The notes below the pieces were generated by a model. The model had not been told where the DNA came from. It was given only the letters and a program-made list of their open reading frames with translations, and searched no databases. Positions 9,225-13,872 of a stretch of 39,847 nucleotides of DNA are shown piece after piece. Source of the stretch: Patescibacteria group bacterium (GTDB lineage: Bacteria > Patescibacteriota > Minisyncoccia > Minisyncoccales > UBA10102); the NCBI GenBank assembly GCA_024239055.1, contig JANBVJ010000001.1, positions 257,277-297,123 of the forward strand, written 5' to 3'. How positions within the stretch are numbered: position 1 is the stretch's first letter; each line of letters opens with the position of its first letter. The position numbers and the translations under genes were made by a program.

Positions 9225-9492
9225 ACTTCACAAGAAGAACAATTCCCAAAAGAAGTATTACCCAGAATCCAAAGAAATAACCTGAGAATATATCCAAGAG
9301 CACTCCACCTACAATTGCATACCAGAAGCTCTTTATATCCCCAGATGCCTCAAAAAAGGCATAAAGAAAAATAAATCCAAAGATAAGATTAGGCACTATT
9401 CCAAAAATAGAAATATGGACAAGAAATGTTGTCTGAAAAATAATCAGAATGAGAAAAAGAATAAATATGAGAAAATTCTTTAACATAATCAA
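9181..9492 (-). CDS. mreD: Rod shape-determining protein MreD (short)
   Basis: A 103-residue, almost wholly hydrophobic protein with about four membrane helices, placed between mreC (4-base overlap) and PBP2. MreD proteins are usually about 160 residues, so this is a short form. Sequence conservation in the family is weak and the call rests on hydrophobicity plus position. The start IMLKNFLIFILFLILIIF and PNLIFGFIFLYAFF resemble the N-terminal helices of MreD. Confidence 0.8.
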   Translation of the reverse strand: MIMLKNFLIFILFLILIIFQTTFLVHISIFGIVPNLIFGFIFLYAFFEASGDIKSFWYAIVGGVLLDIFSGYFFGFWVILLLGIVLLVKFVIKSYVRPPILQR

Positions 9493-10295
9493 AAAATAGA
9501 ACTTGGAACGTCATAATTTGTAATAACAAGCAGCACATTATACAAGCTGATATTAAAAGAAGGCTCTAGTACTGCTCGCTGAAATGGCTCAACATCTGAT
9601 GTAATAGCTTCAGTAACCTTACCTACAAGAAAATTCCTGGGAAATATACCTCCTAACTCATAGGTAGATACTATATCTCCCTGTTGAATAACCGCATCCT
9701 GCGGAAGAAGTTCTATTATAGCTTGAAACTTCCCTCTTCCTTTTAATACTCCCCCAATTCTATCTTCTCCTACCACTACATCAACTGAGCTTTGCGTATG
9801 AGAAAGAAGACGGACTCTTGAAAATTCACCAATAACCTCCTCAATTCTTCCAACGGCAATCTTCTCTGATGTAATAACGGGCATCCCCTCTTTTACCCCG
9901 GTACCCGAACGAATAACTAATACATCTTGAGTGGGGTCTTTGAAAAGAATCTCACCCTCTACAAACGTATAATCTTCCTCTAAACCAAATGCAAGAGCTT
10001 CCCTAAGTTTTTCATTTTCCTTTTGTATGCTTTCCAACTCACCAATCTTCTGTTCTAATTCTGCATTTTCAAGTAATAGACGCTCATTCTCTGTTTTTAG
10101 CCTTCCTGCATCAAATACCTCTTTACCTGCATCTGAAAAGGAATCTCCTATTTTCCATAAAGCAGACTGAGATGAAGCAAAAATATTCCATACTGTACCT
10201 CTGATTGGATTTTCAATCACATTGAGTGAGATGATTACCAAGAGCACAATAAAAAGGACTGTACGAGACCTTCTTGAAAATAGAACTTTTATCAT
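9489..10295 (-). CDS. mreC: Rod shape-determining protein MreC
   Basis: 268 residues. There is a short cytoplasmic start (MIKVLFSRRSRT), a membrane helix at about 13-28, a coiled coil (about 58-100, NERLLLENAELEQKIGELES) and a beta-barrel domain with GVKEGMPVITSEKIAVGRI and GILPQDAVIQQGDIVSTY-like segments typical of MreC. It scaffolds PBP2 on the periplasmic side. It is the first gene of the operon, and its TATAAT box lies 6 nt from the ATG, which predicts a leaderless mRNA. Confidence 0.94.
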   Translation of the reverse strand: MIKVLFSRRSRTVLFIVLLVIISLNVIENPIRGTVWNIFASSQSALWKIGDSFSDAGKEVFDAGRLKTENERLLLENAELEQKIGELESIQKENEKLREALAFGLEEDYTFVEGEILFKDPTQDVLVIRSGTGVKEGMPVITSEKIAVGRIEEVIGEFSRVRLLSHTQSSVDVVVGEDRIGGVLKGRGKFQAIIELLPQDAVIQQGDIVSTYELGGIFPRNFLVGKVTEAITSDVEPFQRAVLEPSFNISLYNVLLVITNYDVPSSIF

Positions 10296-10301
10296 TTATT
10301 C

Positions 10302-10330
10302 ATTATACGGCTCTACTTACCTCTTGACAA
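10302..10330 (-). promoter_or_regulatory. mreC operon promoter (leaderless; shares -35 with opposite promoter)
   Basis: Minus strand TTGTCA (10325-10330), a 17-nt spacer and TATAAT (10302-10307), then 6 nt to the ATG. The -35 overlaps almost completely with a plus-strand TTGACA (10324-10329), so two divergent promoters share one near-palindromic box, TTGACAA. Confidence 0.75.
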
Positions 10331-10352
10331 CAAATGCATAATAATATAACAT
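10324..10352 (+). promoter_or_regulatory. Promoter of structured RNA 1
   Basis: TTGACA (10324-10329), a 17-nt spacer, then TAACAT (10347-10352). A start near 10358 would place the first base at the GGGGCA that opens the structured RNA. Confidence 0.6.
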
Positions 10353-10356
10353 AAGG

Positions 10357-10693
10357 GGCATCTTGGACACTTAGAAACATGTGTCTGGGTGGTGCTCAGT
10401 CAGTGGGGGTATATCAGATGTGCTCTCAGAAAAAGACTAGTCAACGCGGAGGATTTGGTAATAACCTGGAATTAGCTACCGGGTTCAGAAGTACGCCCGT
10501 TTCCGGCAAAATGGTCCGGGATTAAGATTCTGGAGGGGTTCAATAAGACCCTAAAAGGTTCTAGGGCAACGGAATACCAGATCAATGCGCCACAGCCCGT
10601 ACTGGGTATTGGGGTTACAACTGAATAACCCACTTGGCTGACACCAAAAAGCTCTTTCCTCGACGGTACCCCTTCTGGATACCGTCTTTTTTT
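10357..10693 (+). ncRNA. Structured RNA 1, unidentified, about 335 nt
   Basis: No open reading frame here is convincing, but the stretch is bounded by a promoter and a strong terminator and folds well. A 5' hairpin pairs GGACAC with GTGTCT. A long-range helix pairs CAGTCAGTGGG (10397-10407) with CCCACTTGGCTG (10629-10640), with one bulge, extended by GGTG/CACC. Inside are GGGTTA/TAACCC, CCCTA/TAGGG, TTCCGG/CCGGGA and AATACC/GGTATT hairpins. The size fits RNase P RNA or tmRNA. However, I find no GAGGAAAGTCC/ACAGAA pair on this strand and no tRNA-like ends with TTCGA, so neither name is supported. Confidence 0.6.
10662..10693 (+). terminator. Terminator of structured RNA 1
   Basis: GACGGTA pairs with TACCGTC (7 bp, extended by a C-G after a mismatch) and is followed by seven T. 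The T-run is on the plus strand only, which fixes the direction of the RNA. Confidence 0.85.
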
Positions 10694-10701
10694 ATGAAAA
10701 G

Positions 10702-10727
10702 AAAAACCGATGGGTTTAATCATCGGT
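10702..10727 (-). terminator. Hairpin with minus-strand T-run
   Basis: ACCGATG/CATCGGT, 7 bp with an 8-nt loop, followed on the minus strand by five T. It may stop read-through from the rRNA side toward mreC, or act as an antisense stop. Confidence 0.45.
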
Positions 10728-10795
10728 CTTCAAAATAAGCATCTCTTTGCTAGCTACATGAATATATAGATATAGCTAAAAAGTCAATATATCTA

Positions 10796-10824
10796 TTGAC
10801 AAGTAAAGGAAATAATGATAGTCT
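10796..10824 (+). promoter_or_regulatory. Promoter of structured RNA 2
   Basis: TTGACA (10796-10801), a 17-nt spacer and TAGTCT (10819-10824) preceded by TGA, that is an extended -10. A start near 10831 matches the first base of the closing helix. Confidence 0.65.
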
Positions 10825-10830
10825 ATTTAT

Positions 10831-11022
10831 AGGGTGTTTGGGGGTAGGTCTTTGCTTACAATTGCTTGCGCTGCAAGTTCGGGCGGCGATATCCCCGGAC
10901 AGGATATCTCATTAGTGTGACCAAGTCATACGTGCAGCACTCCTGTAGATTAAGGTACAAACGCCTCCGTACCTATTCCGCTGGATAAGCTAAATACGTA
11001 GAGATCTCCCCCAAATACCCTT
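10831..11022 (+). ncRNA. Structured RNA 2, about 190 nt, 6S-like closing stem
   Basis: The ends pair strongly: GGGTGTTTGGGGG (10832-10844) with CCCCCAAATACCC (11008-11020), 13 bp with one G-U. The stem continues after a small internal loop with GGTCTT/GAGATC. Inside are GCTGCA/TGCAGC enclosing GATATCC/GGATATC and GTGTGAC/GTCATAC hairpins, and a separate GGTAC/GTACC hairpin on the 3' side. Length, strong closing stem and the small 3' hairpin recall 6S RNA (ssrS). The branched terminal domain is not the single rod expected, so the name is only a suggestion. It has its own promoter and terminator. Confidence 0.6.
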
Positions 11023-11023
11023 A

Positions 11024-11066
11024 AAAAACGCCGCAGTACAATAATTGTACCCTGGCGTATTTTTTT
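11024..11066 (+). terminator. Terminator of structured RNA 2
   Basis: ACGCC/GGCGT plus GTACAA/TTGTAC around a 3-nt internal loop on each side, with loop TAA, followed by seven T on the plus strand. Confidence 0.85.
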
Positions 11067-11074
11067 ACATAAAC

Positions 11075-11103
11075 AAAAAGCACCCAAATAAATGGGTGTT
11101 TTT
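11075..11103 (-). terminator. Bidirectional terminator at the end of the 23S-5S unit
   Basis: GCACCC/GGGTGT around AAATAAAT, with T-runs on both strands. On the minus strand it lies just past the 5S gene and should end the 23S-5S transcript. Confidence 0.7.
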
Positions 11104-11119
11104 GTTCATCATAGACACT

Positions 11120-11228
11120 GTAAGAGAGCTACCTACTTTCGCCCGTAAAGACTATCATCGGCCTTGAGAATTTTCACTTCCGAGTTCGGAATGGGATCGG
11201 GTGGAGCACTCTCAGCATAGCTCCCCTA
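11120..11228 (-). rRNA. rrf: 5S ribosomal RNA
   Basis: The minus strand contains the conserved 5S core: CCGATCCCATTCCGAACTCG and GAAGTGAAA, with helix I pairing GGGGAGCTA near the 5' end with TAGCTCTCT near the 3' end. Outside the mature ends, CATCATAGATAC (11231-11242) pairs with GTGTCTATGATG (11108-11119), a 12-bp processing stem. Ends are estimated to within a few bases. It follows the 23S gene at the usual short distance. Confidence 0.93.
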
Positions 11229-11657: not shown

Positions 11658-11955
11658 CTTTGTCGACATTTTGCCCTCGTTACCGAGGGGATCGGACTAT
11701 ATCTTCATCCTCTAAAATCTAAGAGGCGTCGGCGTATTAGCTCTACTTAATAAATAGAACTCCGATTCTTACGAATCAAGTCTCTACAGGGTTATAACTT
11801 AATATGCAACAAACTACATACGATTTTTCAATTAAGTTAAACTTCCCACGGTATTGTCCAGATGTATCTGGTAATACATTTCCTGGAGTTCACCGTTATA
11901 AGCCGAATTTTTCTTGATGACATTACTGTCATGGCGCCCCGATGTATATTACATA
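11658..11955 (-). other. Group I intron in 23S rRNA at E. coli position about 2500
   Basis: The 23S sequence reads GGCACCT, then 298 nt of foreign sequence, then CGATGTCGGCTCATCACATC, which is continuous in E. coli. The upstream exon ends in U and the insert ends in G, as group I splicing requires. Inside are AACGGTGAACTCC and ACCGTGGGAAGT (P4-P6 type), GAGACTTGA and the hallmark AAGATATAGTCC (P7/S element). There is no open reading frame for a homing endonuclease. The site is in the peptidyl-transferase centre next to A2503; 2500 is an insertion site known from other rRNA introns. Boundaries come from comparison with the conserved exons. Confidence 0.9.
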
Positions 11956-13872
11956 AGGTGCCGAACAGGGCCGTAGATATGGACTCGCGGGCCCTACCAG
12001 CCTGTTATCCCCGGGGTAGCTTTTATCTGATAATCTCCGCGTTTTCTACGAAAACACGTCGGTTCACTAAGTTCTGGTTTCCCAACTGCTCGACATATCC
12101 GTCTCGCAGTAAAGCTAGCTTGTGCCTTTACACTATCTCCACCATTTCCATCGGCGGATAGCTAACCTTTAAACGCCTCCGTTACCTTTTAGGAGGCAAG
12201 CGCCCCACTTAAACTGTCCACCTCCCACTGTCATTCGCTGAGCGAAATTAGTGCTATCTTCGTAAAAGATGGGTGTTTCATTGATGGCTCCACTAAGACC
12301 GAAATCTTAGCTTCAAAGCCTCCCCACTACGCTACGCATCTAAAAAAATAGAACAATGAGAAGCTACAGTAAAGCTCCCGGGGTCTTTCCGTCTAGCCGC
12401 AGGTAACCGGCATCTTCACCGGTATTGCATTTTCACCGAGCACCTCCTCGAGACAGTTCTCCAGTCGTTACGCCTTTCATGCAGGCCTGAACTTACCAGG
12501 CAAGAGATTACGCTACTTTAACACGGTTATAGTTACCGCGGACGTTCACTGGGGCTTCGACCGCTCAGCCTTCAGATAAATCCAAAGACCGGCAGTTTTA
12601 ACACTCCAGCACTGGTCAGGCGTCAGCCCCTATACATACTTTTACAAGTTGAGCAGGGACCTGTGTTTTTGATAAACAGTCGCCAGAGAAACAGTCGCTG
12701 CGGCCCTAATATTAATTAGGGCAGTCCTTATCCCGAAGTTACGGACACTGATTTGCCGAGTTCCTTAAGGAGGTTTCACTCGTTCACCTTAGCATATTTG
12801 CGCTAACCTACCTGTGTTGGTTTGCGGTACGGACTCTTTAAGTTATACGTAATAGAGATTTTCTTGGAAGCGTGCTCGTTCGGATTCCTTCTCCCGTGGG
12901 AAAAGATTTCCACCACACTTGGATTGCTCCTTATGCAGCCGACAGAAATCCAATAATCTGCCCGAAGTACTACACTCCGTCATCTACTACAACACTTAAC
13001 GAGGGGCAGGAATATTAACCTGCTGTCCATCGCTTCAGACCTTTCGGTTCAAAAGCTTAGGCCCGCCTAACCCTTGGATGATCACCATTGCCAAGGAAAC
13101 CTTAGGTTTTCGGTGTGCAGGGCTCTCACCTGCATTGCGGTTACTCATGCCAACATTCTCACTTCTCATCGCTCCACAAGAGGTCACCCTCCAGCTTCAA
13201 CGCAATAAGAACGCTCTCCTACCACTCCTGAGATAAATCTCAGAAATCCTTATCTTCGGTATTTAACTTAAGCCCCGATAAATCTTCGGCGCAAAACCTC
13301 TGAACTAGTAAGCTGTTACGCACTTTTTAAAGGGTAGCTGCTTCTAAGCTAACCTCCTAGCTATCTGAGAAGTTTCACCTCCTTTCTTAGCACTGAGTTA
13401 AAATTTAGGGACCTTAGATGAAGGTCTGGGCTGTTTCCCTTTTGAACATGGAGCTTAGCCCCCACATTCTGACTGACTATGCTAGTCACTCTAGTATTCG
13501 GAGTTTGGTAAGAATACCTAGCTTGCGCCACGAGAATCCTTTCCAGTGCTCTACCCCCAGAGTGTTGTTCATAATCGCTAGCCCTAAAGCTATTTCGGAG
13601 AGAACCAGCTATTACCAAGCTCGATTAGCTTTTCACTTCTTACCACAGCTCATCCCAAGACGTTGAACGGTCTACGGGTTCGGACCTCCCTTTGCCTTTC
13701 GGTAAAGTTCATCCTGGCCATGGCAAGCTCGCTTGGCTTCGGGTCTTCTCCCATCGATTTTAATTCGCCCTATTAAGACTTGGTTTCCCTATGCCTTCGC
13801 GCCGTAAGCGCTTTAGCAACCGATGAGAAAAACTCGTTGGCTCGTTCTGCAAAAAGCACGCCGTCACCCCGC

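Follow-up and report, generated by a model that had tools for sequence, protein, structure and literature searches.

Which kind of RNA occupies the spacer between mreC and the 5S rRNA gene in this genome, and is it a form of 6S RNA? The stretch of DNA analyzed, here called the window, comprises 39,847 nucleotides (G000:C1:257277-297123) of a 1.08 Mb genome in 47 contigs, whose close relatives, as judged by PBP2, are Patescibacteria. An earlier note had placed two RNA genes in tandem in this spacer and read the second, at window positions 10796-11066 on the plus strand and here named RNA2, as either a diverged 6S RNA or a different RNA. Both plus-strand structured RNA genes and both flanks were found:

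9489-10295, minus strand: mreC, flanking the RNA genes (PF04085, E 6e-26)
about 10354-10693, plus strand: RNA1, the neighboring structured RNA gene (z -3.2)
11120-11228, minus strand: 5S rRNA gene, the end of the rRNA operon, convergent with RNA2 (RF00001, 70 bits)

RNA1, just upstream of RNA2, is ~340 nt long, with a TTGACA promoter at 10324 and a terminator-like 3' end. No Rfam model matches it, even with E values as high as 10, and blastn gave no relative beyond chance in 247 genomes of the order. Within the 23S rRNA gene, a group I intron match occupies window positions 11673-11976 on the minus strand (70.8 bits), and one relative (L019) has such a match too.

Gene Organization and Predicted Fold

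RNA2 has the elements of a complete gene, all on the plus strand:

10796-10824, plus strand: promoter-like TTGACA-N17-TAGTCT, by sequence reading, 7 nt before the body
10831-11023, plus strand: RNA2 body, 193 nt (minimum free energy -79.8 kcal/mol, z -5.8)
10831-10844, plus strand: 5' strand of closing helix P1a, 14 nt, pairing with 11008-11021 (probability 0.75-1.0)
10845, plus strand: one-nucleotide U bulge between P1a and P1b
10846-10855, plus strand: 5' strand of closing helix P1b, 10 nt, pairing with 10998-11007
10864-10875, plus strand: core GCUUGC-GCUGCA, with competing local and long-range pairings; present in the probable relative L079 as GCUUGC-UGCA
10915-10931, plus strand: distal hairpin GUGUGAC/GUCAUAC (pair probability 0.98-1.0), absent from L079
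10933-10938, plus strand: UGCAGC, a possible partner of GCUGCA at 10870-10875 (probability about 0.67), its sequence kept in L079
10952-10973, plus strand: 3'-side hairpin AGGUAC/GUACCU (inner pairs about 1.0, outermost 0.68)
10998-11021, plus strand: 3' strands of P1b and P1a
11028-11066, plus strand: terminator-like hairpin with U7 tail (z -4.2)

The promoter was not listed by a consensus scan because its -10 element is weak. The predicted fold of the body is far more stable than that of dinucleotide-shuffled sequences (-79.8 versus -53.4 +/- 4.5 kcal/mol, 0/200 as low), and the plus strand folds better than the minus strand (z -5.8 versus -3.7). The terminal duplex alone reaches -40.8 kcal/mol, compared with -26.4 for the best of 1000 shuffles.

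Several features described in the earlier note are borne out, among them a length near 190 nt and a small 3' hairpin. The closing stem is also present, but the 13 + 6 bp assigned to it fall short of the predicted 24 bp (14 + 10, with the U bulge between). The distal part is predicted to be branched rather than rod-like, as had been described; its proposed enclosure by GCTGCA/TGCAGC is less certain, since rival folds whose cores differ are only 0.1-1.4 kcal/mol away, which leaves GCUGCA/UGCAGC as one candidate pairing among several. The terminator and the convergent 5S rRNA gene argue against a leader RNA of a neighboring gene. Taken as a whole, the sequence strongly supports RNA2 as a real small structured RNA gene forming a stand-alone transcription unit.

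Relationship to 6S RNA

6S RNA is a rod with a central bubble between two helical arms (PMC8876501). RNA2 resembles 6S/SsrS (RF00013) in its length, in the helix joining its ends and in being a stand-alone gene with its own terminator. However, long closing stems are common to many RNAs and do not discriminate for 6S, and the search with the Rfam 6S model that the earlier note had proposed gave no match in 10280-11120 with E as high as 10, nor any match elsewhere in the host genome. None of the 4227 models of Rfam 15 matched RNA2 at the gathering threshold. The RF00013 result is weak on its own, as this model also misses the true 6S gene of the host. Across the order, RF00013 reaches E <= 0.1 in 4 of 196 genomes and passes its cut-off in none, so that the 6S RNAs of this order stay unannotated.

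The three best of these four matches have a strict signature in common, GGGAG...CACCCAC. A pattern search with this signature gave matches in 33 of 60 relatives, the host genome included, several of the listed matches being clearly due to chance; in the host genome there is a single match, at C1:88013-88061. A covariance model (R2) was built from 16 good aligned Patescibacteria 6S RNAs of the order, with the host genome left out. It identified one strong match in that genome, at C1:87962-88115 (86.3 bits, E = 3.6e-16; L126:9962-10115, also L108), a locus with TTGACA, the closing stem GCCCTAC/GTAGGGC and a terminator-like end. With filters off, R2 found nothing above 11 bits in the RNA2 region, and that match lay on terminators, not on the RNA2 body. 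By reading, RNA2 lacks the GGGAG...CACCCAC central bubble, and in its predicted minimum-energy fold, as in the alternative ones, the region enclosed by the closing stem is multibranched, with no rod. RNA2 is therefore rejected as the 6S RNA of the host: a proper 6S gene lies elsewhere in the genome, and the chance-level R2 score, the missing bubble motif and the missing rod agree with this. Of the two readings offered earlier, the diverged 6S does not hold, and the different RNA is the one supported.

A further reading is that RNA2 would be a second, divergent RNA of the 6S or Ms1 type that binds RNA polymerase by mimicking an open promoter. Its length near 190 nt and long closing stem fit this, and such RNAs can depart from the canonical form: B. 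subtilis 6S-1 remains functional in vitro when trimmed to its central bubble plus two short arms (PMC8876501), and Ms1 is an example of a 6S-related RNA with a different appearance (PMC9130861). Ms1 has a length of about 300 nt, contains a central bubble and associates with core RNA polymerase (PMC9130861); in Actinobacteria, sequence searches had difficulty detecting it, and it was traced to new genera through synteny (PMC4191392, PMC9130861). RNA2 is stand-alone like Ms1, but its host has a true 6S, whereas Actinobacteria are reported to be without one. The canonical host 6S, the chance-level scores of RNA2 with both R2 and RF00013, its lack of the bubble and its branched interior make this reading improbable. 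The length of the probable relative, 125 nt, also weighs against it, given that RNAs <150 nt were left out as 6S/Ms1 candidates in PMC9130861.

A Probable Relative in Another Family

Searching with the protein PBP2, encoded nearby, led to locus L079, which is 54% identical in PBP2 and, over 2.8 kb, identical to genome G107 of another family. Between mreC and 5S, this locus has an RNA in the same orientation as RNA2, preceded by TTGACAAG as in the RNA2 promoter and at a similar offset. The L079 RNA is 125 nt long, with a 17-bp closing helix AAUGAUGUUUGGGGCGG/UCGCCCCAGGCAUCGUU and three hairpins; its fold scores z -5.1, and a comparison of the strands gave z -5.3 on the RNA strand and -3.2 on the other. 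The RNA is followed by a terminator-like hairpin and a T-run. Five elements are common to the two RNAs in the same order, namely UGUUUGGGG, GCUUGC-UGCAAG, GCGG, UGCAGC and CCCCA, of which the first and last form the common closing helix UGUUUGGGG/CCCCA.

Aligned by sequence alone, the two RNAs reach p = 0.05 when taken whole and p = 0.025 when only the 5' part is compared. Since plain MAFFT fails to join the closing helices, the alignment was fitted to the structure by hand. In it, 98% of cells are paired and both partners differ in 12 of 29 pairs, as against 40-54% of cells and 0-2 doubly changed pairs when the partners are slid; this covariation comes from two sequences, in an alignment from which stretches were left out. 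The earlier note had named absence of covariation in the stem as grounds for refutation, and the 12 compensated pairs seen with this one probable relative, in a comparison of only two sequences, give no sign of such an absence. In the same two-sequence comparison, P1a is kept with compensatory changes, and in the hand-fitted alignment the 3'-side hairpin AGGUAC/GUACCU matches an L079 hairpin. RNA2 and the L079 RNA are likely homologous, the chief grounds being the joint agreement of position, orientation, promoter offset, helix and motif.

This one comparison supports two further suggestions. The closing helix and the GCUUGC-UGCAAG...UGCAGC core appear to be conserved across two families, and the distal arm appears to be expendable, the RNA being 193 nt in one case and 125 nt in the other.

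Just upstream of the L079 RNA, at L079:6575-6640 on the minus strand, lies a terminator-like hairpin with a T-run, before which no gene was seen. Its similarity to the RNA1 end is weak (p = 0.07 versus shuffles), and it is possibly a remnant of a lost RNA1.

Distribution Among Other Genomes

Blastn searches of 40, 25 and 247 genomes returned only the locus of RNA2 itself, the rest being chance-like matches of ~18-42 nt, many of them in AT-rich spacer. A plasmid collection gave no blastn match to RNA2, and motif patterns in viral contigs gave 21 stretches without an R1 score, then 0. R1, a model built from the two sequences (RNA2 and L079), found G107 strongly, the RNA2 locus weakly and a fragment in G148 at a sub-significant level (E = 0.42) over the 247 genomes of the order, and the RNA2 locus only over 384 genomes of the class; the model is too weak for relatives separated by the distance seen between RNA2 and L079. 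With filters off, it also responds to 5S genes in relatives, on either strand, since every long stem spanning about 120 nt receives a score. Owing to this lack of specificity, R1 scores are not used as proof of homology.

In most other relatives the gap between mreC and 5S is short and the RNAs are absent from it. The mreC-5S spacers of L026, L029, L036, L010 and L007 were folded and read, and no RNA2-like anatomy was recognized. Likewise, no RNA2-like RNA occupies this place in L082, which was taken as G085 (of the family of G107) from matching 5S coordinates, or in L083.

Such patchiness raises the possibility that RNA2 is a MITE-like mobile element or its remnant, the closing stem representing terminal inverted repeats. 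By reading, AGGGTGTTTGGGGG and AGGGTATTTGGGGG are indeed inverted repeats at the DNA level (13/14 identical). Yet RNA2 is single-copy over almost the whole genome (blastn and R1), its stem contains G-U pairs, folding is strand-asymmetric (in L079, z -5.3 versus -3.2), and it has its own promoter and terminator. A mobile origin is thus very unlikely.

Proposed Function and Alternative Explanations

The reading preferred here, held with roughly even confidence, is that RNA2 is a stand-alone structured RNA gene outside Rfam, with a closing helix and core apparently kept in one relative and a presumed protein-binding role in trans. Its own promoter would drive transcription toward the 3' end of the rRNA operon, and an intrinsic terminator would end the transcript. 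The 193-nt body would be sealed end to end by the 24-bp bulged helix, which would make the RNA stable and long-lived. In the core, GCUGCAAG could pair locally with GCUUGC or distantly with UGCAGC, in a mutually exclusive manner, and might form a pseudoknot. We infer that this core is the working part and would bind a protein in trans, so that RNA2 would serve as a scaffold or decoy and not as a riboswitch or base-pairing sRNA. As regards one possible partner, a crude motif scan of long open reading frames for Ro/Rsr (the partner of Y RNA) gave no convincing candidate.

A stand-alone promoter and terminator are the usual design of trans-acting sRNAs. RNA2 shares this anatomy and might instead be a base-pairing sRNA that contacts mRNAs through its single-stranded loops. 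The sealed 24-bp closing helix and compact core are nonetheless unusual for such sRNAs, phmmer searches with E. coli queries gave no Hfq or CsrA homologue, and RNA1 pairs with RNA2 no better than with shuffled RNA2. A base-pairing role is accordingly considered unlikely.

RNA2 could also be a badly diverged housekeeping RNA (SRP RNA, part of tmRNA or RNase P RNA) missed by the models. ARAGORN found no tmRNA on the contigs taken as bacterial, though smpB is present, and no SRP RNA turned up in a strict motif scan. Against this, a lax cmscan (E up to 10) gave no SRP, tmRNA or RNase P match in the region, a proper RNase P RNA (126 bits) lies elsewhere in the genome, and RNA2, by reading, has neither a tRNA-like 3' end nor the SRP hairpin motif. 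This reading is hardly credible.

A structured RNA, presumably protein-binding, remains the preferred reading. RNA2 is like the candidate structured RNAs that comparative genomics has yielded (e.g., PMC2864571) in being stand-alone, intergenic and structured, with no function assigned; it differs from them in matching none of the 4227 Rfam 15 models and in being found in two genomes only. The most fitting label is that of a new and rare structured sRNA absent from the catalogues, though not one of a categorically new kind.

Other RNA Genes in the Host Genome

Contigs C1-C3 and C5-C40 include a SmpB gene (L142), while among contigs C1-C40 ARAGORN places a tmRNA only on C4 (L041, L159, L160). 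This 53.6 kb contig looks like a large phage, with a terminase, a T4-type RNA ligase and a polynucleotide kinase; within 9.4 kb, a single strand carries 26 tRNA genes and the tmRNA. The gap between two of these tRNA genes is filled by a match resembling RNase P RNA (81.8 bits, cut-off 100, not reached); an RNase P RNA on a phage, if true, would be unusual.

Conclusions

Patescibacteria have very reduced genomes. The literature search on Patescibacteria with 6S RNA found no study of such RNAs. The order-wide 6S RNAs described here, with a strict sequence signature and scores below the Rfam cut-off, are directly usable for annotation. It is conceivable, though quite unlikely, that RNA2 and its relative represent a new Patescibacteria RNA family at the 3' end of the rRNA operon that would bind the transcription or translation machinery and serve as a second global regulator beside 6S. 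A rare yet structured RNA retained at a single site in two families would give a tractable entry to the RNA biology of Patescibacteria.
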